From the NCBI GenBank assembly GCA_029940535.1, contig JAPYUM010000007.1, positions 21,861 through 82,006 on the forward strand: 60,146 nucleotides of DNA, given 5' to 3'. Each line of letters begins with the position of its first letter. The stretch's first letter is position 1. Source of the stretch: Vicinamibacterales bacterium. Its GTDB lineage: Bacteria > Acidobacteriota > Vicinamibacteria > Vicinamibacterales > UBA8438. Position numbers and translations under genes: made by a program. The notes beneath the pieces were generated by a model that saw nothing but the letters and a program-made list of their open reading frames with translations, searched no databases and was not told where the DNA came from. Shown here piece by piece: positions 35,890 through 50,285 of this stretch.

Positions 35890-36657
35890 CTACCTTGGGC
35901 TCGCGCCGCAGCGGCGGGTGTCACCCCGGCCGATGACCTTGCGGAACGGCGCCGGAAGCTCACTCCAACTCTTCTCTCCGGCGAAGAACCGTGGCTTCTG
36001 ACCGGGGAATCGGGCGATGAACGCGCGGTGACGGTTGCGCCATTGCGTCACGCGTTGGTCCGGGGTCCGAATCGGGCGGTGCGGATGGTCGAGTAGCATC
36101 CGCTCGACCTTCCAGACGTTGCGCTCCGAGAGACGCCAGTCATACCGGCCCAGCCCCCGCAGATCGACGACGGCGTATCCCGTAAGGCGACCGGTGAGGT
36201 CGACATACGGTTCGACATAGCTCAGCGCCAGCGCGCGTACCGTCCGGAAGACCGCTTTGCGTCCGTGCAATCCCGGGTCGCGTGATCGGGCCACCGCACC
36301 CCAACGTCCCCGTCGCCGGTAGACGAACAGCACGTGATCCAGTTGGTCGACCGATTCAAAGCTCAGGACCAGAGGTGGATAGCCGTGGTGCTCCATGGCG
36401 GTCGCGGCCAGCAGCACCGCTTCGAGGCAGTGGGCCGTCTGCTCGCGCACGACGCCTCGAAAGCTACGGAGCGTCAAGGGCGCGGCGGCAGCGTTGTACC
36501 GCAACCCATTGAGGTAGCGTTGGACCGTCAGCGGCGTGGACAACCGACGCAGCAGTCGACGCTCTGCGGGCGTGAACGCCGGGGCCGGGTGGTCTGGTCG
36601 GGGGGGCGAGGGTGTGCGTCCAGAGCCGTGTCGGGCTTGCGATACACTCACCGCCAT
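35890..36657 (-). CDS. Transglutaminase-like cysteine protease-fold protein
   Basis: 255 aa from ATG 36657. A Cys-His-Asp triad in the proper order: T-A-H-C-L-E-A, Q-L-D-H-V-L-F-V-Y, S-R-D-P-G-L-H-G-R, as in transglutaminase-like domains. N-terminal 50 residues are Pro/Arg-rich and probably disordered. No signal peptide. The start codon overlaps that of the divergent DUF72 gene (36656), so both are read from a shared tiny spacer. Enzymatic role unknown. Confidence 0.7.
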   Translation of the reverse strand: MAVSVSQARHGSGRTPSPPRPDHPAPAFTPAERRLLRRLSTPLTVQRYLNGLRYNAAAAPLTLRSFRGVVREQTAHCLEAVLLAATAMEHHGYPPLVLSFESVDQLDHVLFVYRRRGRWGAVARSRDPGLHGRKAVFRTVRALALSYVEPYVDLTGRLTGYAVVDLRGLGRYDWRLSERNVWKVERMLLDHPHRPIRTPDQRVTQWRNRHRAFIARFPGQKPRFFAGEKSWSELPAPFRKVIGRGDTRRCGASPR

Positions 36658-37419
36658 GGTGTCATCACCGCTCCCCGCGGCGGGAGCCGACATCGAGCCT
36701 ACTGCCCCCCGCATCCTGGTGGGCACCTCCGGCTACAACTACGCCGAATGGAAGGGGAGCTTCTATCCCGAGAAGTGGCCCGCCAAGAAGATGCTCCCGT
36801 TCTACGCGGAGCGGCTGTCGACCGTCGAGATCAACTACACCTTCTATCGGATGCCGACTGACCGTCTGCTGGCTGGATGGTCTTCGGTCACGCCCGATCA
36901 CTTCCGTTTCACGCTCAAGGCGCCGCGCCGCATTACTCATATCGCTCGGCTGCGAGGCTGTGAAGAGATGGTGTCGGCGTTTTGCGGCGCGGCCCAGACC
37001 CTTGGGCGAAACTGGGCGTGCTGCTGTTTCAGTTGCCGCCGTCCTTCAAGAAGTATTTGGCCGTGTTCGACGAGTTTCTCGGCATCCTGCCACCGGGGGT
37101 GCGGGCGGCTTTCGAGTTTCGGCATGTGTCGTGGCACGACCCGGATGTCTTCGATCGCTTGCGGGCGCGCCGACTGGCGCTCTGCGTCGCCGACAGCGAG
37201 CGCATGACCACGCCGATCGAGGGGACCGCGCCTTACGGCTATTTCCGGCTTCGCGACCAAGGCTATCAGCCTGACGATATCGCGCGGTGGGCGGAGACTA
37301 TCGCGACCGCGTCGGCGGCGTGCGGCGAGGTGTTTGTCTACTTCAAGCATGAAGACGAGGGGACGGGACCGGAATTCGCTCGCATGCTCTTGGACGCACT
37401 TCCCTCGCCGGCGCGCTGA
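36656..37419 (+). pseudogene. DUF72 (YecE) family protein, single-base frameshift
   Basis: N-terminal half in one frame: I-L-V-G-T-S-G-Y-N-Y-A-E-W-K-G-S-F-Y-P, V-E-I-N-Y-T-F-Y-R-M-P, F-T-L-K-A-P-R. C-terminal half in the next: L-G-V-L-L-F-Q-L-P-P-S-F-K-K-Y, F-E-F-R-H-V-S-W, F-V-Y-F-K-H-E-D-E-G. The break lies at GGG 37004-37006; one more G restores L-G-A-K-L-G-V-L-L-F-Q. Total length is one base short of a multiple of three. Otherwise a complete 254-aa DUF72 TIM-barrel. A homopolymer miscall is as likely as real decay. Confidence 0.85.
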
Positions 37420-40668: not shown

Positions 40669-42099
40669 ATGCTCACCGCCGTTCTGTTGTACCTGTCCTT
40701 CCTGATTCTGGTCGGGACCTACCGCAGTCGACAGGTGAAGACGGGCGACGACTTCCTCGTAGCCGGCCGGACGCTACCGGCGCGGGTGCTGGTGTTCACG
40801 CTGTTGGCCACCTGGGTGGGGTCTGGCAGTCTGTTTGGTGGAGCCGGTCTCGGATATCGCGCGGGGTTTCCAGCCTTGTGGCAGTCAGCGGGAGCGTGGG
40901 TGGGTATCGCGCTCGTGTATTTCATCGCCCCGCGCGTCCGGCGTATCGCCCAATACACGGTGCCCGACATTCTCGAGTTGCGGTACGGCCCCGCCGCGCG
41001 TGTGCTCGGCACCATCACCACCGTTCTGGCATACACGACGATTGCGGCGTATCAGTTCCGTGGCGGCGGTCGACTCCTCGGGCTGGTCTCGGGCGTGGAC
41101 CCGGATACCGGTGCGCTCATCACGATGGTCTTCTGCGTCGTCTTTACCTCGCTGGCCGGGATGCTCTCGATCGCCTACCTCGATGTCGGTAACGGGATCT
41201 TGATGACGGTCGGGGTCATGCTTGCGGTCGTGTTCATGGTGGGGGACGCGGGTGGGATCGGGGCGTCGCTCTCAGCCCTCCGCCCAGACCAGGTGTCGGT
41301 GTTCGGGACGCTGGGCCCCCAGGCGTCGTTGGCGCTGTTTCTGCCCACCATGTTCCTGCTGCTCGGCGAAGCGAACATGTATCAAAAGTTCTTCTCAGCC
41401 CGGGATGAGCGGGCGGCGCGGCGGGCGGTGGTGGCCTGGATTGTCGGCACTATCGTGGTCGAGACGCTGATCGACTCCACCGGCGTGCTCGCCAGCACCG
41501 TCATGCCGGGTCTGAGCGACGCACAGTCGGAAGAGGTCGTTATTCGGGTTGCGACCGATGTGCTGCCGTCATTCATGGGTATCTTGCTGGTGTGTGGGGC
41601 GGCCGCCATCATCGTCTCCACCGCGAACAGCTTCTTGCTCACACCGTCGACGAACCTGATCCGCGACGTCTACCAGCGGTTCATCAACCCCGGCGTGACG
41701 GATCGGCAGCTCATTGTCTATACCCGAGTGACGGTGGCGGTGCTGGGCGTGCTCGGCTACGTCGCCGGCAATTTTTTTCCCACGATTCTGGCGATGGCGC
41801 TCTGGGCCTACACTATGTACGGCGCTGGGATCACCCCAGCGTTGCTGGGTGCCTTGCTCTGGCGACGCGCGACCGCTCAGGGCGGCGTTGCCTCTATCCT
41901 GGTCGGCATGCTCACGACGCTCGTCTGGGAAATCGTGGCCTTGGCGCGCGGCGTCGACGGGGCCCCGGCCTATCTGTTGGGGCTCGAGACCGCCTATCCG
42001 GCTCTGGCGCTATCCATCTCGACATTGATCGTCGTCAGCCTCGCAACGCCCCGGCAGACTGACGAGCAGGTGGCCGTCCTGTACTCGGGGAGCGCGTGA
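40669..42099 (+). CDS. Sodium:solute symporter (SSS family)
   Basis: 476 aa from ATG 40669; the open frame upstream runs through the phosphoesterase pseudogene and is not coding. About 13 membrane helices. Start M-L-T-A-V-L-L-Y-L-S-F-L-I-L-V-G-T-Y with R-S-R-Q-V-K-T-G-D-D-F-L-V-A-G-R-T-L, the typical SSS N-terminus; then G-S-G-S-L-F-G-G-A-G and T-A-N-S-F-L-L-T-P-S-T-N-L. Imports an unknown solute. TGA overlaps the GTG of the radical SAM gene by four bases, so the transporter and enzyme are translationally coupled. Confidence 0.9.
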   Translation: MLTAVLLYLSFLILVGTYRSRQVKTGDDFLVAGRTLPARVLVFTLLATWVGSGSLFGGAGLGYRAGFPALWQSAGAWVGIALVYFIAPRVRRIAQYTVPDILELRYGPAARVLGTITTVLAYTTIAAYQFRGGGRLLGLVSGVDPDTGALITMVFCVVFTSLAGMLSIAYLDVGNGILMTVGVMLAVVFMVGDAGGIGASLSALRPDQVSVFGTLGPQASLALFLPTMFLLLGEANMYQKFFSARDERAARRAVVAWIVGTIVVETLIDSTGVLASTVMPGLSDAQSEEVVIRVATDVLPSFMGILLVCGAAAIIVSTANSFLLTPSTNLIRDVYQRFINPGVTDRQLIVYTRVTVAVLGVLGYVAGNFFPTILAMALWAYTMYGAGITPALLGALLWRRATAQGGVASILVGMLTTLVWEIVALARGVDGAPAYLLGLETAYPALALSISTLIVVSLATPRQTDEQVAVLYSGSA

Positions 42100-43529
42100 G
42101 CGCCACCGACTCGGCCGCGCCGCCGGCGTCGATCGCACCGGTGACGTCGGTGGAGCGGGCCATCCGGGTCACCCTGGTCGCGACCTACGAACTGGGACGC
42201 CAGCCATTCGGTCTGGCGTCGCCGGCGGCCTGGTTGCAGGCCGCGGGGTTCGGTGTCATCACGGTTGATCTGTCACGCGAACCGTTTCGGCCCCAGGCGT
42301 TCGAGAGCGATCTGGTCGCCTTTCATCTACCGATGCATACCGCGACGCGCCTGGCGGTACCGGTTATCCGACGGGTGCGCGCGTTGGCGGCCGAGGCCCG
42401 TTTGTGCTGCTACGGCCTCTACGCGCCACCCAACGAGCGGATGCTGCGCGACCTCGGCGTGGACCACGTACTGGGCGGCGAGTTCGAGCAGGCGCTGCTG
42501 GCCGTGGCGTCCGGCGCTCTGCCCCAGGCGTCCGCCGTGTCGTTGCCGCGGTTGCGGTTCCGGGTGCCGGAGCGCGGCGGTTTGCCGCCACTCGAGCGCT
42601 ACGCCTCGTTGCAGACACCGGGGGGGCGTCGGGTCGCGGGGTACACGGAAGCCAGCCGCGGGTGTAAACATTCTTGCCGGCACTGTCCGGTGGTCCCGGT
42701 GTATCGCGGTCGGTTCCGGGTGATTCCCCGCGATGTCGTGCTCGCCGACATTCGGACGCAGGTCGAGGCGGGGGCGCGACATATCACGTTCGGAGACCCG
42801 GACTTCTTCAACGGTGTCGGTCACGCGGTCGCTATTGTCGAGGCGCTGGCCTGTGAATTTCCCGGTGTCGGCTATGACGTCACCATCAAGGTGGAACACC
42901 TCAAACGTCATCGCGACCGTCTGTCCTTGTTGCGCGACACTGGTTGCCAGTTTGTCGTGACGGCGGTCGAGTCGCTGGACGACGTCGTGCTGGCGAGACT
43001 GGTGAAGGGTCACACCCGAGCCGACTTTGAAGCGGTCGTCGAGCAGTGCCGCACGATCGGGCTGCCGTTGACGCCGACGTTCATCCCGTTCACGCCGTGG
43101 GTCACGCCGCGTGGATACTTCGAGTTGTTACGGACGATTGACGCGCTCCAACTGGTAGAGCACGTGGCTCCGATCCAGTTGACGCTGCGGCTGTTGATCC
43201 AAGCAGGTTCGGGCCTGCTCGAGCTCGAGCGAGACGCCCTGGGTGCGAGCCTCGGGCCATTCGACGAGCGACTCCTCGTGTACCCGTGGGCGCATGTCGA
43301 CCCGGCCGTCGACCGATTGCAGGAGGCCGCGGCCGCGGTCGTGGGCCGGGGGCTCACCTCCTCTCGGTCAGAGCTCTTTGACCAACTTCTGGCGCTGACG
43401 GCTGAACGCCTTGGGGTGGCGACGCCAAGACGTGTGTCTGACGCTCAGCACCGAGCGGCCGTGCCCTATCTGAACGAACCGTGGTACTGCTGAGCCGAGC
43501 CGTCCGCCGAGCAGGTGGCTCTGGCATGA
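42096..43529 (+). CDS. CUAEP-tail radical SAM selenoprotein (TGA 43491-43493 read as Sec)
   Basis: Radical SAM enzyme. N-terminal 150 residues form a cobalamin-binding-like Rossmann domain (V-T-L-V-A-T-Y-E-L-G-R-Q) without the classic DxHxxG. The SAM motif C-K-H-S-C-R-H-C (CxxxCxxC) is near residue 189, in E-A-S-R-G-C. The apparent protein ends N-E-P-W-Y-C at TGA 43491-43493. Reading TGA as selenocysteine gives Cys465-Sec466-Ala-Glu-Pro and ten more codons to TGA at 43527-43529, 477 aa in all. C-U-A-E-P is the tail for which I recall a named family (CUAEP/CCAEP-tail radical SAM). A SECIS-like hairpin follows at once. Reaction and substrate are unknown. GTG start overlaps the symporter stop. 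Confidence 0.85.
43494..43525 (+). promoter_or_regulatory. bSECIS-like hairpin for Sec insertion
   Basis: Immediately after the TGA, GCC-GAG (43494-43499) can pair with CTC-T-GGC (43519-43525, one bulged T). After a four-base bulge on the 5' side, CCGCC (43504-43508) pairs with GGTGG (43514-43518, one G-U) around the five-base loop GAGCA, whose first base is G. A small apical stem-loop with G among the first loop bases, starting about ten bases after TGA, fits the bacterial SECIS pattern recognised by SelB. Pairing was worked out by eye. Confidence 0.65.
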
Positions 43530-43591: not shown

Positions 43592-44854
43592 ATGCCTCGA
43601 GTGCTCGTGATCGCCACCACGACCGGGTATCAGACCCGAGCCTTCGGTGAGGCCGCTGAGGAGTTGGGCGTCGATCTGGTCTTTGCGACGGATCGCTGCC
43701 ACCAACTCGACAACCCCTGGCGGGACGACGCGGTGCCGGTGCGTTTCCATGATGAGCCACGGTCGGTGGCCGCCATCGAAGAGATGGCTGGCGACGCACC
43801 GGTCGACGGGGTGCTGGCGGTCGGTGATCGGCCCGCGGTGCTCGCGGCGTTGGCTGCCGTGGCGCTCGGCGTGCCGGGGCACCCTCCAGGAGGGGTCCGG
43901 GTCTGCGGCAACAAGCTCGACACGCGGCGGCGGCTGCAGGCGGCCGGTCTGTCATGTCCGCAGTTTCGGACGCTGAGGGTAGGCACGAACCCGGAGGCGT
44001 TCCCCGCAGACATCGTGTTTCCATGTGTGGTGAAGCCGCTGACGCTGTCGGGCAGCCGCGGCGTCATCCGGGCGAACAGTCCGACCGAGCTTCGGGCCGC
44101 GGTGTCTCGCGTGTGTCGATTGCTCGCGCGTGGCGAGGTGCGCCAGCGTCGCGACCCGTCGGACGCGCAGCTTCTGGTGGAGACGTTCATTCCTGGCCGC
44201 GAGTACGCGCTCGAAGGCGTGATGGAGAACGGTGCACTCCACATCCTGGCCCTGTTCGATAAGCCGGATCCGCTCGATGGCCCGTTCTTCGAGGAAACGA
44301 TCTATGTGACACCATCCGCCGAACCGGACGCCACGCGCGACCGGATCGTCGGGGCGGTGACGGAGTCGGCGCGCGCGCTGGGGTTGCACCACGGGCCGGT
44401 GCACGCCGAGTGTCGCGTCAATGAGCGCGGCGTGTTCGTGCTCGAGATCGCGGCTCGGCCCATCGGCGGGCTGTGCGCGCGGGCCCTCAGTTTTCGAGGG
44501 CGCGGCGATCGGGTCGTCTCGCTTGAAGAGTTGCTCCTGCGCCACGCCTTGGGAGAGCCGGTGCGAGGCTATCGTCTCCTGCCTGGGGCGTCGGCGGTGA
44601 TGATGATTCCGATTCCGCGAGCGGGCATCTACCGCCGAATGGAAGGAGGGTCGATAGCCAGCGGGATCTCCGGAATTGTGGATTTGGTGGTCACCGCAAA
44701 GCCGGACCAGCATCTGGAGCCGCTCCCAGAGGGAGCCAGCTATCTGGGGTTTATCTTCGCGCGCACCGAGGACCCCGCCGATGCGGTCCGCGCCCTGCGA
44801 CAAGCGCACGAAACATTGAACGTGGTCATCGATGCGTCCATCCCGGTTGTATGA
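43592..44854 (+). CDS. ATP-grasp domain protein
   Basis: 420-aa ligase of the ATP-grasp superfamily, forming an acyl-phosphate then coupling it to an amine, thiol or other nucleophile. Seen: pre-ATP-grasp Rossmann start L-V-I-A-T-T-T-G-Y, C-G-N-K-L-D-T-R-R-R-L, ATP-binding V-V-K-P-L-T-L-S-G-S-R-G-V, V-E-T-F-I-P-G-R-E-Y-A-L-E-G, and metal ligands in H-A-E-C-R-V-N...V-L-E-I-A-A-R-P-I-G-G. Intact and of carbamoyl-phosphate-synthetase-like/PurK-like length. It starts 62 bases after the selenoprotein stop and likely belongs to the same operon. Substrate unknown. Confidence 0.88.
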   Translation: MPRVLVIATTTGYQTRAFGEAAEELGVDLVFATDRCHQLDNPWRDDAVPVRFHDEPRSVAAIEEMAGDAPVDGVLAVGDRPAVLAALAAVALGVPGHPPGGVRVCGNKLDTRRRLQAAGLSCPQFRTLRVGTNPEAFPADIVFPCVVKPLTLSGSRGVIRANSPTELRAAVSRVCRLLARGEVRQRRDPSDAQLLVETFIPGREYALEGVMENGALHILALFDKPDPLDGPFFEETIYVTPSAEPDATRDRIVGAVTESARALGLHHGPVHAECRVNERGVFVLEIAARPIGGLCARALSFRGRGDRVVSLEELLLRHALGEPVRGYRLLPGASAVMMIPIPRAGIYRRMEGGSIASGISGIVDLVVTAKPDQHLEPLPEGASYLGFIFARTEDPADAVRALRQAHETLNVVIDASIPVV

Positions 44855-44928: not shown

Positions 44929-45222
44929 CTAGGCCTTGCCTTGTTCGGGGACGTAGTCCGGCGGGAGGGCCGACCCTTCACCGAAGAAAAAGTCCTCCAT
45001 GTGTTTCGCCACCAAATCCTGCGCCTCTTTCTGCCACGGCATCAGGCGATACTCGTTGAGTATCATCTTCATCCGCTCTTCCCAGAGCTTCCAGGCCTCG
45101 GCGGAGACGTTCTCGTAGATGCGTTGACCCAGTTCGCCCGGCCACGTGGGGGCATCGAGGGCCGGGAGCTCTTTCTGGAACTTTACGCACTGCACCGTGC
45201 GGGGCGTCGTCGGTTCGCTCAT
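44929..45222 (-). CDS. Fe(2+)-trafficking / oxidative damage protection protein (YggX-like)
   Basis: 97 aa from ATG 45222. C-V-K-F-Q-K-E-L-P-A-L, P-G-E-L-G-Q-R-I-Y-E-N-V-S, W-K-L-W-E-E-R-M-K-M-I-L-N-E-Y and M-P-W-Q-K-E-A...H-M-E-D-F-F-F match YggX, with its conserved Cys near the N-terminus. Protects labile Fe-S clusters in enteric bacteria. An open frame upstream continues into the MFS gene antisense but is not coding. Single gene. Confidence 0.92.
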   Translation of the reverse strand: MSEPTTPRTVQCVKFQKELPALDAPTWPGELGQRIYENVSAEAWKLWEERMKMILNEYRLMPWQKEAQDLVAKHMEDFFFGEGSALPPDYVPEQGKA

Positions 45223-45282
45223 GATGATTGGTTGATAAGGGCTGAAATCGAGGAATCGTAACATGCGACGGGACACGCGGTG

Positions 45283-46734
45283 ATGGAAGAGCGAATCGGG
45301 GGCACCCGGCGGGTGGTGGCGACCGCCGGCGTGCTGGGGGGGAGTTTCCTGGCCGCAATCGAGACCACAGTGGTCGCGGCCGCCATGCCGACGGTGGCCG
45401 ACCAACTCGGCGGACTCTCGCTCTACAGTTGGGTCTTTTCCGCCTACCTGCTGACCTCCACGGTGTCGATTCCGCTGTGGGGGAAACTCTCGGACCTGTA
45501 TGGACGGCGCCGGTTCTATCTCTGGAGCGTCGGTCTGTTTCTGGTGGGGTCGGCGCTGTCGGGTGCCGCCCAGACCATGCCGCAGCTCATCCTGTTCCGG
45601 GCCTTGCAGGGGTTCGGCGCCGGCGGGTTGTTGCCGCTCGGGATGAGTGTGCTGGCCGATCTGTATACGCTCGAGGAGCGCGGGAAGATGCAAGGGTTGC
45701 TGAGCGGCGTGTGGGGCGTCGCCTCGATCGTCGGTCCGGTCACCGGTGGCTACATCACCGCGTTGTTCTCCTGGCGCTGGGTGTTCTACTTGAATATCCC
45801 TTTCGGCGTCGCGACCGCCCTAGCTGTCGCGGCCTCTCTGCGCGACAGACCGGCGGGGCAACGACATGCCGTGGACTACGCCGGCGCCGCCTTGCTGATG
45901 ACGTCAGTGACACTGCTCATTCTCGCGTTGAGTCGAAGTGGTCTGGATGCCGGGGGCGGACAGGTCGTGTGGTTGTGGCCCGCCTACCTCGGTGCGGTCG
46001 TGTGCGGAGTAGGACTGGTCCGAGTCGAGCGTCGCGCGGCCGAGCCGATGGTGCCGGTCGACCTGCTGGCGGACCGGATGGTGGCGGCCATCGCCGGCAC
46101 CGGGCTTCTGGTCGGTGTCGGCATGTTTGGCGCGATCACGTATGTGCCGCTGTTCGTGCAGGAAGGCTTGGGCGGAAGCTCCGTCGAGGCCGGGCGCGCG
46201 TTGACGCCGCTGATTCTCGGGTGGGTCGTGACGTCGATGATCACGGGACGGGCGGTGCTGCGGACTGGATACCGGCCGATGGTGTTGAGCGGCCTGGTCT
46301 GTGTCACGCTGGCGTTCGGCGGGCTTACGCAGGTCGGGGCGGAGAGTTCCGTGTGGCTGCTACGCGCCGACCTGACGCTCATGGGGATGGGCCTGGGCAT
46401 GACGATGCTGTCGCTGGTATTGGCCATGCAGAACGTCGTGGCCCGACGTCATCTGGGGGTGGCCACGTCTTTCGGACAGTTCACTCGGAGCATTGGTGGT
46501 GCGGTCGGGGTGGCTCTCCTCGGCGCCGTGATCGCCGCCGCCTTGCAAGACGCGGGGGATCCCGTGGCCGCAGACATGGTCCGCGGCATTCATCGCGCCT
46601 TCTGGCTAGCGGCCGCCGTCTCCGTGGTGGCCGTGGTGCCGGCGCTCCGGATTCCGAGCGGTCTTCCGTCCGAGCTGGTGCACCCGGGCCACGCCATGAC
46701 CCCCACCGGGCGCGAGATACCGAACGAAGTCTGA
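45283..46734 (+). CDS. MFS drug efflux transporter (DHA2, EmrB/QacA type)
   Basis: 483 aa (GTG at 45280 is an alternative start). About 14 membrane helices. Helix 1 carries F-L-A-A-I-E-T-T-V-V-A-A-A-M-P-T-V, the DHA2 motif D1 variant; then W-G-K-L-S-D-L-Y-G-R-R (motif A), R-A-L-Q-G-F-G-A-G-G (motif B) and G-P-V-T-G-G-Y-I (motif C), which marks antiporters. Proton-coupled efflux of unknown compounds. It starts 60 bases from the divergent YggX-like gene. Confidence 0.9.
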   Translation: MEERIGGTRRVVATAGVLGGSFLAAIETTVVAAAMPTVADQLGGLSLYSWVFSAYLLTSTVSIPLWGKLSDLYGRRRFYLWSVGLFLVGSALSGAAQTMPQLILFRALQGFGAGGLLPLGMSVLADLYTLEERGKMQGLLSGVWGVASIVGPVTGGYITALFSWRWVFYLNIPFGVATALAVAASLRDRPAGQRHAVDYAGAALLMTSVTLLILALSRSGLDAGGGQVVWLWPAYLGAVVCGVGLVRVERRAAEPMVPVDLLADRMVAAIAGTGLLVGVGMFGAITYVPLFVQEGLGGSSVEAGRALTPLILGWVVTSMITGRAVLRTGYRPMVLSGLVCVTLAFGGLTQVGAESSVWLLRADLTLMGMGLGMTMLSLVLAMQNVVARRHLGVATSFGQFTRSIGGAVGVALLGAVIAAALQDAGDPVAADMVRGIHRAFWLAAAVSVVAVVPALRIPSGLPSELVHPGHAMTPTGREIPNEV

Positions 46735-46812: not shown

Positions 46813-48900
46813 CTAATGCACCGCGTCGCCCGACTCCGCGGCCCACTTCGACATGTCTTCGGTGTCGAGGCTGACGGTTACGACTCGAGCCACTTCCACC
46901 CGCACGTCGTTGAACACCGCCCCGCCCCCGATGTCGGTCAGGTCGTCCGAGACCAGCGCGTTGGCGGTCGAGCCGTTGAGCGTGCTCATTCGCCACAGCC
47001 CTTTCGGCAGGCCCACCGTGCCACGGCGCATGTCGGGGTTGCGTGTCAGCGGGCAGTGCACCTCTCCCAGCGCATTGAACATGCGGACGGTGTCGCCGGT
47101 CGACAGCCCGCGAGGTTCCGCGTCGTCTGGATGCATGTGCACGCTCGCCGGGCCGCGGCGCAGCTCACCGAGCGACGAATTGATCGTCTTCTCGGTAGCC
47201 GGCGAGATCAGGTTCAGTGGGTAGTCGTCGGTGGCCGGCTTTTCTTGGTATCGGTACAGCCCGGACGGAGTCTGGTTGTCCAGAGCTTCCGGAAACAGCT
47301 GCACCTTGCCGTCCGGTGTGCGGGGCGACACATCGACGAACTGAATAGGCGCGTCACCGGCCGGGTCGGTTACGATGCCGGCACCCATGAGACCGCGGCC
47401 GACCTCGTCCGGCATCGTCCCGGTGACGGCGAGCAGGGTCTCCACGTCGGTGGCGTGTTCCCCGCTCGTGGCCAAGCCCAGTCGGTTCGCCAACTCGGCG
47501 AAGACCTCGACGTTTGGCCGCGCCTCACCAACCGCGTCAATTGCGGGCTTGGCCAGTTGCATCGTGCTGAGGCCATAGCTCGTCACGATGTCGTACGACT
47601 CGAGAAACGTGGTGGCCGGCAACACGACATCGGCCAGGGCCGCCGTGTCGGTCATCACCTGGTCGAACACGACAGTGAAGAGATCCTGGCGGGCCAGCCC
47701 CTCCAATACCTTGTTCTGATTTGGCATGGTGACCGCCGGATTGCAGTTGTAGACAAACAGCATTTGAACGGGCGGGTCGCGATAGTCCAGGAGCGCCCGT
47801 CCCAGGTGGTTCATGTTGACCAGGCGGGTGTCCGGCTCCGGTGCACCGATCCAATCTTCGGACGTGTGCGCCCAGGCGCCGGTGTTGCTCATCGAGTATC
47901 CGCCGCCCCGTACGCCGAACTTCCCGGCGACCGTGGGCAGCGCCAGGACCGCGAGGGCCGCGTTCCCGCCGTTCCGATTACGTTCCAGGCCCCATCCGCA
48001 CCGAATGACAGCGGGAGAGATATCGGCGTACATTTCGGCGACGTTCTCGAGTAGTTCGGGGTCGAGGCCAGCCACACTCGCCGCATGGTCAATCGTCCAT
48101 TCGGAGGCACGTTCGCGTAGTTGGACCGCCCCGTGTGCGTGCTCGTCCAGGAACTCCTGGTCGGACAGTCCCTGCTCAAAGAGAAACCGATGCATCGCCA
48201 GTGCCACCACGACATCGGTGCCGGGCTTGACAGCGAGATGAATGTCGGCCTGTCGGGCCAAGTTGGTTCGCCGTGGGTCGATCACCACCAGCGCGGCACC
48301 CGCCGCCTGGGCCGCCTTGATGTGCGGGATCAGATGGATCCCCGAACTGGAAGGGTTGGCGCCCCACACGATGATGAGTCGCGCGTACCGATAGTCCGAA
48401 TAGGTGACCCCAGGCATCTTGCCGTAGAGCGCCTGGTTGGCGGTGCTCGTCGGCATGGCGCAGACGGTGCGGGCCAGGCGTGAGGTGCCGAACTGGCGAA
48501 ACAGCCGGGCGTCAGTGGTGTCCTGGGTCAGCAGACCGTTCGATCCGCCGTAGGAGAAGGGGAGAATCGCTTCGGCGCCCCATTCGTCGCGGATCGCTTC
48601 CATGCGCGACGCAATCAGTCCGAGGGCGTCGTCCCAGCTGGCTTTGCGGAACTCGCCGTCCCGCCCGCCGTCACGGATCAGTGGATACGGGATGCGGGCC
48701 TCTCCATACATCCGTTCGCCGAACCGTCGGACCTTGGCACAGATGTATCCGTTGGTGGTGTCGTGGGCGTGTGAGCCGTCGATCCTGAGGACCTTGCCAT
48801 TTTCGACGGTTACTGCCAGGCTGCACGCGTCGGGGCAGTCGAGCGGACAGACCGTGTCAACGGTCGACCGCCCCCACTTCAAATCGTCGTTGTCGCCCAT
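46813..48900 (-). CDS. Molybdopterin-dependent oxidoreductase (DMSO-reductase family)
   Basis: 695 aa catalytic subunit. N-terminal 4Fe-4S ligands Cys18, Cys22, Cys26, Cys54 (C-P-L-D-C-P-D-A-C; Y-I-C-A-K). Cys147 in T-V-C-A-M-P-T falls where formate dehydrogenases have Sec, and is the likely Mo/W ligand. Later W-G-A-N-P-S-S-S-G, V-I-D-P-R-R-T, and the C-terminal MoCo-binding domain with V-H-M-H-P-D-D-A. No Tat signal. No partner iron-sulfur or membrane subunit is adjacent, so electron acceptor and substrate are unknown; similar single-gene enzymes are called formate dehydrogenase-like or thiosulfate reductase-like. Confidence 0.88.
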   Translation of the reverse strand: MGDNDDLKWGRSTVDTVCPLDCPDACSLAVTVENGKVLRIDGSHAHDTTNGYICAKVRRFGERMYGEARIPYPLIRDGGRDGEFRKASWDDALGLIASRMEAIRDEWGAEAILPFSYGGSNGLLTQDTTDARLFRQFGTSRLARTVCAMPTSTANQALYGKMPGVTYSDYRYARLIIVWGANPSSSGIHLIPHIKAAQAAGAALVVIDPRRTNLARQADIHLAVKPGTDVVVALAMHRFLFEQGLSDQEFLDEHAHGAVQLRERASEWTIDHAASVAGLDPELLENVAEMYADISPAVIRCGWGLERNRNGGNAALAVLALPTVAGKFGVRGGGYSMSNTGAWAHTSEDWIGAPEPDTRLVNMNHLGRALLDYRDPPVQMLFVYNCNPAVTMPNQNKVLEGLARQDLFTVVFDQVMTDTAALADVVLPATTFLESYDIVTSYGLSTMQLAKPAIDAVGEARPNVEVFAELANRLGLATSGEHATDVETLLAVTGTMPDEVGRGLMGAGIVTDPAGDAPIQFVDVSPRTPDGKVQLFPEALDNQTPSGLYRYQEKPATDDYPLNLISPATEKTINSSLGELRRGPASVHMHPDDAEPRGLSTGDTVRMFNALGEVHCPLTRNPDMRRGTVGLPKGLWRMSTLNGSTANALVSDDLTDIGGGAVFNDVRVEVARVVTVSLDTEDMSKWAAESGDAVH

Positions 48901-49169: not shown

Positions 49170-50285
49170 ATGGGCCCCTCGACCACGCGACAGTCGGCGA
49201 AGCAGGCAGGTACCGTGGTTCTCGCGGTTCGGGTCGCGTTGGTAGGTAGCGCGCTGGCGCTGGCGCTCTTGCCGCTGCCGCGCCCGTTCGTGGAATCGGT
49301 ATACGCGAGACGTCTCTATCCACTGATTCGTCAACTAGTTACATCTGTCACTCGACACGTCGACGTGGCGCTGTTCGACCTGCTGCTGAGTGGCGGCCTG
49401 CTGGTCATCTCGGCGTGGTGGGCAGTTCGCATGCTCCGAGTTCCGCGCGGTGGGAGGGTTCGCGAGCTGGCGAGGTTGGCCGGCCTGACGGTGGTGGTTG
49501 CGGCCGCCCTGTATCTGATGTTTCTGGCCACTTGGGGCTTGAACTATCGCCGGGAGGCGCTCGCGACCCGGCTGGGCTACTCGGACACCCGTGTGAACGC
49601 GGGGGAGATTGAGGCGCTGGCCGCATCGGCCATCCGGGAACTCAATCGCGCCTACGACGAGTCCGAACACGCGACCTGGCCGCAGTTGTCGGACTTGCCG
49701 AGTAGCCTGGGGCAGGCGTTCGAGCGGACACAACGGCATCTTGGCGTCTCTCCCGTGATGTCCGGCCTGGTGCCGCAGCGGTCACTCCTGACCCCGTACT
49801 TTCGACGCGCCGGAATAGATGGGATGGTCGATCCCTTCTTTCTGCAGGTGCTGGTGAATGACGGCGTGCTGCCATTCGAGCGACCATTCGTAACCGCGCA
49901 CGAGTGGGCCCATGTCGCCGGTTTCGCGCACGAAGCCGAAGCCAACTTTGTGGCGTGGGTGACCTGCCTGCAGGGTGATGAGCGGATGCGGTATTCCGGG
50001 TGGTCGTTCCTGGTGCCCCGTTTGGTGGCGGCCCTACCGCCCGACCGTCAGCCCGGTCTCTGGGAAACGGTCGGGCCGGGAGCGATCGCCGACTTCGCCG
50101 CCGTTCGCGCCCGGTTGAACCGAACCATCCCAGTGGTTCGCCGCACTGCGCGCCGGCTCAATGATCAATACCTGCGAGCGAATCGTGTGGCCAGCGGCAT
50201 CGCCAGCTACGGCGAGGTGCTGCAACTCGCGGTGGGCACGGACCTTGGCCGCGCGCAGTGGTCGGACGCCCCGGGCGGTAGGTGA
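49170..50285 (+). CDS. DUF3810 membrane protein with HEXXH-like zinc site
   Basis: 371 aa. Three N-terminal membrane segments (to about residue 125), then a soluble domain with T-A-H-E-W-A-H-V-A-G-F-A-H-E-A-E-A-N-F (HEXXH plus Glu/His, gluzincin-like). That matches DUF3810, a family of putative membrane-bound metallopeptidases. Activity is inferred from the motif. Single gene. Confidence 0.85.
   Translation: MGPSTTRQSAKQAGTVVLAVRVALVGSALALALLPLPRPFVESVYARRLYPLIRQLVTSVTRHVDVALFDLLLSGGLLVISAWWAVRMLRVPRGGRVRELARLAGLTVVVAAALYLMFLATWGLNYRREALATRLGYSDTRVNAGEIEALAASAIRELNRAYDESEHATWPQLSDLPSSLGQAFERTQRHLGVSPVMSGLVPQRSLLTPYFRRAGIDGMVDPFFLQVLVNDGVLPFERPFVTAHEWAHVAGFAHEAEANFVAWVTCLQGDERMRYSGWSFLVPRLVAALPPDRQPGLWETVGPGAIADFAAVRARLNRTIPVVRRTARRLNDQYLRANRVASGIASYGEVLQLAVGTDLGRAQWSDAPGGR

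Follow-up and report, generated by a model that had tools for sequence, protein, structure and literature searches.

A radical SAM gene with an in-frame TGA codon

The window analysed here, 60,146 nucleotides from the draft genome of a Vicinamibacterales bacterium (4.83 Mb, 228 contigs, 96.9% complete), holds a gene for a radical SAM protein, rSAM_CUAEP, at 42096–43529 on the plus strand. It is preceded directly by a sodium:solute symporter (SSF) gene (40672–42099, plus strand) and followed by genes encoding an ATP-grasp enzyme of the L-amino-acid-ligase type (LAL_C2; 43592–44854, plus strand), a YggX-type Fe(2+)-trafficking protein (44929–45222, minus strand) and a DHA2-type MFS exporter (45280–46734, plus strand). 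The rSAM_CUAEP gene starts at a GTG that overlaps the stop codon of the symporter gene (GTGA), with a GGGGAG stretch immediately 5′ of this start codon.

From the GTG at 42096, 465 codons are open and end in ...VPYLNEPWYC at TGA 43491–43493. The codons behind this TGA read AEPSAEQVALA, 11 sense codons in all, before a second TGA at 43527–43529; this arrangement had been pointed out in an earlier note on this DNA and is borne out by translation. Read through with selenocysteine (Sec) at position 466, the protein has 477 amino acids. A standard, mechanical ORF call stops at 465 amino acids, dropping Sec and the 11 residues after it, the truncation that the earlier note had predicted. Plain gene calling thereby removes the very motif that gives the NCBIfam family NF040546, of radical SAM (seleno)proteins with a CUAEP or CCAEP tail, its name. 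The selenoprotein is thus 'hidden', as the note had it, from a plain ORF caller, but not from NCBIfam, in which a model already describes the tail.

Two motifs mark the protein. The radical SAM motif C190-x3-C194-x2-C197 (CKHSCRHC; 42663–42686, plus strand) lies in a match to PF04055 (Radical_SAM; Pfam, 48.9 bits), and its three cysteines are invariant in an alignment of 31 sequences. At the other end, the tail motif EPW[YF]C-U-AEP, with Cys465 and Sec466 (43479–43502, plus strand), is invariant in the homologue alignment. The full protein scores 578.4 bits against NF040546 and 557.6 bits without the tail, compared with a cut-off of 500. This identifies the radical SAM family with CUAEP or CCAEP C-termini that the earlier note had described, and membership of the window protein in it is virtually certain. 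The runner-up NCBIfam family is ArsL (NF040542), at 232 bits over residues 26–413 (cut-off 450).

The TGA column in homologues

Homologues were taken from a phylum sample, in which 60 of 396 genomes exceeded the NF040546 cut-off, and from named genomes, which were searched with the protein without its tail as the query. In the TGA column, the 107 homologous loci divide into 88 with TGA, 16 with TGC and 3 with TGT; no further codon occurs. Wherever the sequence extends through the next three codons, in 106 loci, these encode AEP or SEP without exception. An alignment of this kind had been put forward in the earlier note as the decisive check, and relatives do have Cys in the TGA column (19 of 107 loci), with AEP conserved behind it (CCAEP). 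The tail is not a product of chance: its inclusion raises the score against NF040546 by 21 bits, the column is restricted to TGA or Cys codons, and [A/S]EP is conserved. At the DNA level, identity between the window and loci L054–L059 is 70–88% over the 33 nt that follow the TGA but 24–39% over the same length beyond the second stop.

A SECIS-like hairpin downstream of the TGA

A scan of the window at Rfam gathering thresholds gave no match, that is, no known RNA family at those thresholds, and we therefore sought a recoding element by comparing homologues. The comparison identified a SECIS-like hairpin, GCCGAGC[AGGUG]GCUCuGGC, at 43506–43525 on the plus strand, with its loop at 43513–43517 and one bulged U. 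It occupies columns 16–35 from the UGA, starting about 15 nt downstream, and has a folding energy of −8.9 kcal/mol on its own.

Taken over 83 distinct Sec sequences, columns 18–22 pair with columns 28–32 (numbered from the U of the UGA) in 88.7% of cells, compared with 75.3 ± 1.1% (maximum 78.8%) in 1,000 partner shuffles and 31–56% in shifted registers, figures that are not to be read as probabilities because the sequences are related and coding. Of all the five-pair helices examined here, it ranks first. Stronger evidence than the shuffles comes from the contrast between gene types: all five pairs are present in 57 of 83 Sec genes but in only 1 of 18 Cys genes. The loop consensus is AG[G/U]U, which resembles the apical loop of the Escherichia coli fdhF SECIS.

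When the window's sequence is taken by itself, the hairpin stretch has a competing, overlapping fold of lower energy, and longer stretches adopt other folds. Folding the window alone gave z-scores of −0.06 to −1.23 for 60–141 nt and −1.96 for 40 nt; as the values for 60–141 nt are unremarkable, single-sequence folding was not used as evidence.

Selenocysteine machinery and a second selenoprotein

The genome from which the window comes encodes the components for which the earlier note had called for a search. Its selB (344.5 bits), selA (531 bits) and selD (292 bits) are all above their cut-offs, and a tRNA-Sec scores 66.8 bits, over the gathering score, with ARAGORN independently calling the anticodon TCA. 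Among the genomes compared, selA is present in 44 of 44 with a Sec-type gene, against 5 of 10 with a Cys-type gene (Fisher p 8e-5).

The same genome also holds, on contig C48, a frame for an FdnG-type formate dehydrogenase that reads ...YIDHQARI-TGA-HSPTVASLAATFGRGAMTNHW..., the known Sec context of this enzyme type. The frame lies on the minus strand in locus L162 (2500–5661 of that contig), with the canonical context ARI-TGA-HSPTVASLAATFGRG. The contig contains an N gap, and there seems to be a duplicated or frame-shifted stretch around the FdnG frame.

We considered whether the Sec machinery might be kept solely for rSAM_CUAEP and rejected this, since, of 19 genomes in the order or class that lack the family, 11 have selA above its cut-off; the formate dehydrogenase selenoprotein in the window's genome likewise contradicts a machinery kept for one protein.

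UGA codon 466 and its rival readings

Together, the column restricted to TGA or Cys codons, the covarying hairpin, the Sec machinery and the second selenoprotein support the proposal of the earlier note that the TGA encodes Sec466. Neither of the two findings that the note named as refuting it, a genome lacking Sec machinery or homologues that end at the preceding Cys with no conserved A-E-P, was borne out. Judged from these comparisons, UGA codon 466 almost certainly specifies selenocysteine, and the joint claim, that this UGA is decoded as Sec in a member of NF040546, is very likely.

The standard ORF call does end at TGA 43491, as it would at a genuine stop with an AEP tail that is a fossil or a chance read-through. 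However, the tail is conserved at the protein level between phyla, 19 of 107 loci have a Cys codon in place of the TGA, identity is lost only beyond the second stop, and the TGA is followed by a covarying hairpin. We therefore judge a true stop very improbable; it is already refuted by the homologues with Cys in this column and by the conservation of the tail. Less probable still is a sequencing or assembly error that turned a Cys codon (TGC or TGT) into TGA in this draft assembly of 228 contigs, as an independent assembly (L053, 93% protein identity) and 86 further loci share the TGA and the SECIS-like hairpin goes with TGA, not with Cys codons.

Repeated exchange of Sec and Cys

With the tail excluded from the tree, the Sec and Cys states require 10 changes, at least 8 of which are forced by well-supported branches. 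A Cys-type pair from Chloroflexi (L072 and L093) adjoins Sec-type Methylomirabilota, and L093, which has a TGT codon, retains a near-complete SECIS-like hairpin, suggesting a recent Sec-to-Cys change.

Few radical SAM enzymes contain Sec, and their use of it is largely unexplained. Enzymes that are otherwise alike, and in which Sec and Cys have been swapped at least 8–10 times, form a ready-made set in which the contribution of selenium can be tested.

Two observations concern individual loci. The Sec-type tails of L116 and L127 (Methylomirabilota) end in AEPTEEQLAPLAPC, with an extra C-terminal Cys. The rSAM_CUAEP protein of L110, on a contig labelled Acidimicrobiia, is identical to that of genome G175 (L051), which belongs to the window's order; the L110 contig is probably mis-binned.

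A recurrent ATP-grasp ligase and Fe–S proteins in the neighbourhood

Counting neighbours within 6 kb of rSAM_CUAEP in 108 loci, we found an ATP-grasp gene in 78. In the 62 loci flanked on each side by 3 kb or more, the gene is present in 47 and has no nearby copy in 15. Its arrangement varies (downstream on the same strand in 64 loci, downstream on the opposite strand in 8, upstream on the same strand in 5 and upstream on the opposite strand in 1), which argues for a functional tie rather than a merely inherited gene order. The genomic link itself is an observation; from it we infer that the ligase is probably the functional partner of rSAM_CUAEP. The window's enzyme shares the ATP-grasp fold family of the L-amino-acid ligase BL00235 (PDB 3vot; residues 20–412, E 9e-37, LAL_C2); no NCBIfam equivalog exceeds its cut-off for this protein. 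A recurrent ligase partner provides a concrete lead to the product of rSAM_CUAEP.

Proteins related to iron and Fe–S clusters recur as well. YggX (PF04362), which in the window forms the C-terminal part of an ORF at 44929–45693, is found near rSAM_CUAEP in 53 loci; in L092 and L121 it is the gene immediately upstream, on the same strand. An NfuA-like protein occurs upstream or downstream in 20 loci, mostly of a deep-branching clade, and aconitase in 15. NfuA-like genes (Nfu_N plus NifU) are immediate same-strand neighbours of rSAM_CUAEP, downstream in L143, L144, L147 and L153 and upstream in L030, L033, L148 and L152.

The symporter and MFS exporter genes of the window are conserved in close relatives only, and it is uncertain whether the exporter belongs to the module. 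Three further genes of the window are also conserved in close relatives. A gene at 35890–36726 (minus strand) encodes a bacterial protein that weakly matches PF14822, the vasohibin family (27.5 bits, cut-off 24). A molybdopterin oxidoreductase gene at 46813–48900 (minus strand; formate dehydrogenase alpha-like, below curated cut-offs), free of in-frame TGA codons, adjoins the module in these relatives too. A homologue of the DUF3810 protein of L081, encoded at 49170–50285 (plus strand), is conserved near the module.

Predicted fold and relation to ArsL

The AlphaFold2 model of the rSAM_CUAEP protein (pLDDT 87, pTM 0.86) has as its best structural match AprD4 (6fd2; Z 26.6, 404 residues aligned), followed by MgmA, OxsB, TsrM and MiaB. 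It predicts an N-terminal B12-binding-like Rossmann domain and then a radical SAM barrel, whose [4Fe-4S] site has the CX3CX2C motif. AprD4, a radical SAM 1,2-diol dehydratase, is thus the closest solved fold, but it shares only 19% identity, and its alignment stops at model residue 443, with the Cys–Sec tail beyond it. The tail is modelled with middling pLDDT (about 65–76), so a position of Cys465–Sec466 over the active site is tentative.

Among named families, the relation to ArsL is the sole biochemical lead on function. ArsL has been proposed to transfer the 3-amino-3-carboxypropyl group of SAM to arsenite (PMC8552651). Deep-branching CUAEP members in the phylum sample reach at best about 348 bits against the ArsL model, and no protein of that sample exceeds the NF040542 cut-off. 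The window protein does not qualify as an ArsL, given its 232 bits against the required 450 and a translation that does not contain RCCLKC; that it works like ArsL is a tentative proposal.

A proposed function

We propose the following mechanism. SelB and tRNA-Sec would decode UGA codon 466 as selenocysteine, aided by the hairpin about 15 nt downstream, a step that is well supported by comparison of sequences. The C-terminal tail would present the vicinal Cys465–Sec466 pair. Reductive cleavage of SAM would give a radical, by analogy with ArsL (for which a 3-amino-3-carboxypropyl radical is proposed), and the Cys–Sec pair would either hold or reduce a soft acceptor, such as As(III) or a selenium or sulfur species, or work as a selenylsulfide redox pair. 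The earlier note had suggested that the pair could form a selenylsulfide or ligate a metal. The enzyme may thereby make or modify an amino acid that the ATP-grasp ligase would couple to another amino acid, and the YggX and NfuA-like neighbours may supply or repair oxygen-sensitive Fe–S clusters.

We advance this ArsL-like chemistry, in which the pair handles a soft element or acts in redox and the ligase couples the amino acid product, as the most likely function, though a tentative one. Equally tentative is the wider reading that the Cys–Sec enzyme, the LAL-type ligase, YggX and NfuA constitute an undescribed pathway for a small peptide-like compound with a soft element at its core (Se, As, S or a metal), a pathway tied to Fe–S upkeep; under the same joint reading, this putative pathway would be spread through Acidobacteriota and present in several other phyla.

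A real Sec could also serve in another way. The Cys–Sec pair might be a selenylsulfide redox relay that passes electrons to the radical SAM cluster, or might resolve a protein-bound intermediate, without binding a metalloid or handling the substrate; the product would then be a conventional organic amino acid or dipeptide. In thioredoxin reductase and other selenoproteins, vicinal Cys–Sec pairs are known to be redox-active; here the neighbours are YggX and NfuA-like Fe–S proteins rather than arsenic genes, and repeated substitution by Cys fits a redox role. By contrast, the nearest named relative, ArsL, is proposed to act on As(III). We consider such a relay a plausible alternative that falls clearly short of an even chance.

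A B12-dependent radical SAM methyltransferase is unlikely. The fold includes a B12-binding-like domain, and MgmA, TsrM, OxsB, CysS and TokK are among the structural matches (Z 16.5–25); however, the Pfam match to the B12-binding domain PF02310 stays below its cut-off (20.9 against 32.1 bits), the best match, AprD4, is a diol dehydratase, and MiaB and RimO, which are not cobalamin enzymes, also match the fold well.

Two features open the function of rSAM_CUAEP to testing: the repeated exchange of Sec and Cys, and the ligase/Fe–S neighbourhood.

Comparison with known systems

Our literature search found no description of the SECIS-like hairpin, the Sec/Cys tree or the ligase/Fe–S neighbourhood and no mention of CUAEP; two papers outside its reach, Haft and Gwadz 2023 and Haft and Tolstoy 2025, may cover parts of this. 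A 2026 review lists other radical SAM selenoproteins, TIGR04167 (rSAM_SeCys) and NF045646 (TrsS), and does not name NF040546 (PMC13188914). Those two are likewise radical SAM selenoproteins but different families, neither of them among the NCBIfam matches of the window protein at E 0.001.

ArsL (rSAM_RCCLKC) shares with the window protein the CX3CX2C motif and is its second-best family match. By its name, RCCLKC is a paired-Cys motif, whereas the window protein ends in YCUAEP. The arsinothricin cluster includes an efflux permease gene, arsQ (PMC8552651), and an MFS gene lies near rSAM_CUAEP in the window. The context otherwise differs: here the recurrent neighbours are an ATP-grasp ligase, YggX and NfuA, and neither arsM nor another arsenic gene was seen among them.

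With NF040546 itself, the window protein shares a full-length match above the cut-off, the radical SAM motif and the CUAEP tail, and it shows no family-level difference; the interchange of Sec and Cys is already in the family's name. Novelty is limited accordingly, as the Sec tail is part of a named NCBI family, and the window gene is a further member of that family rather than a new kind.
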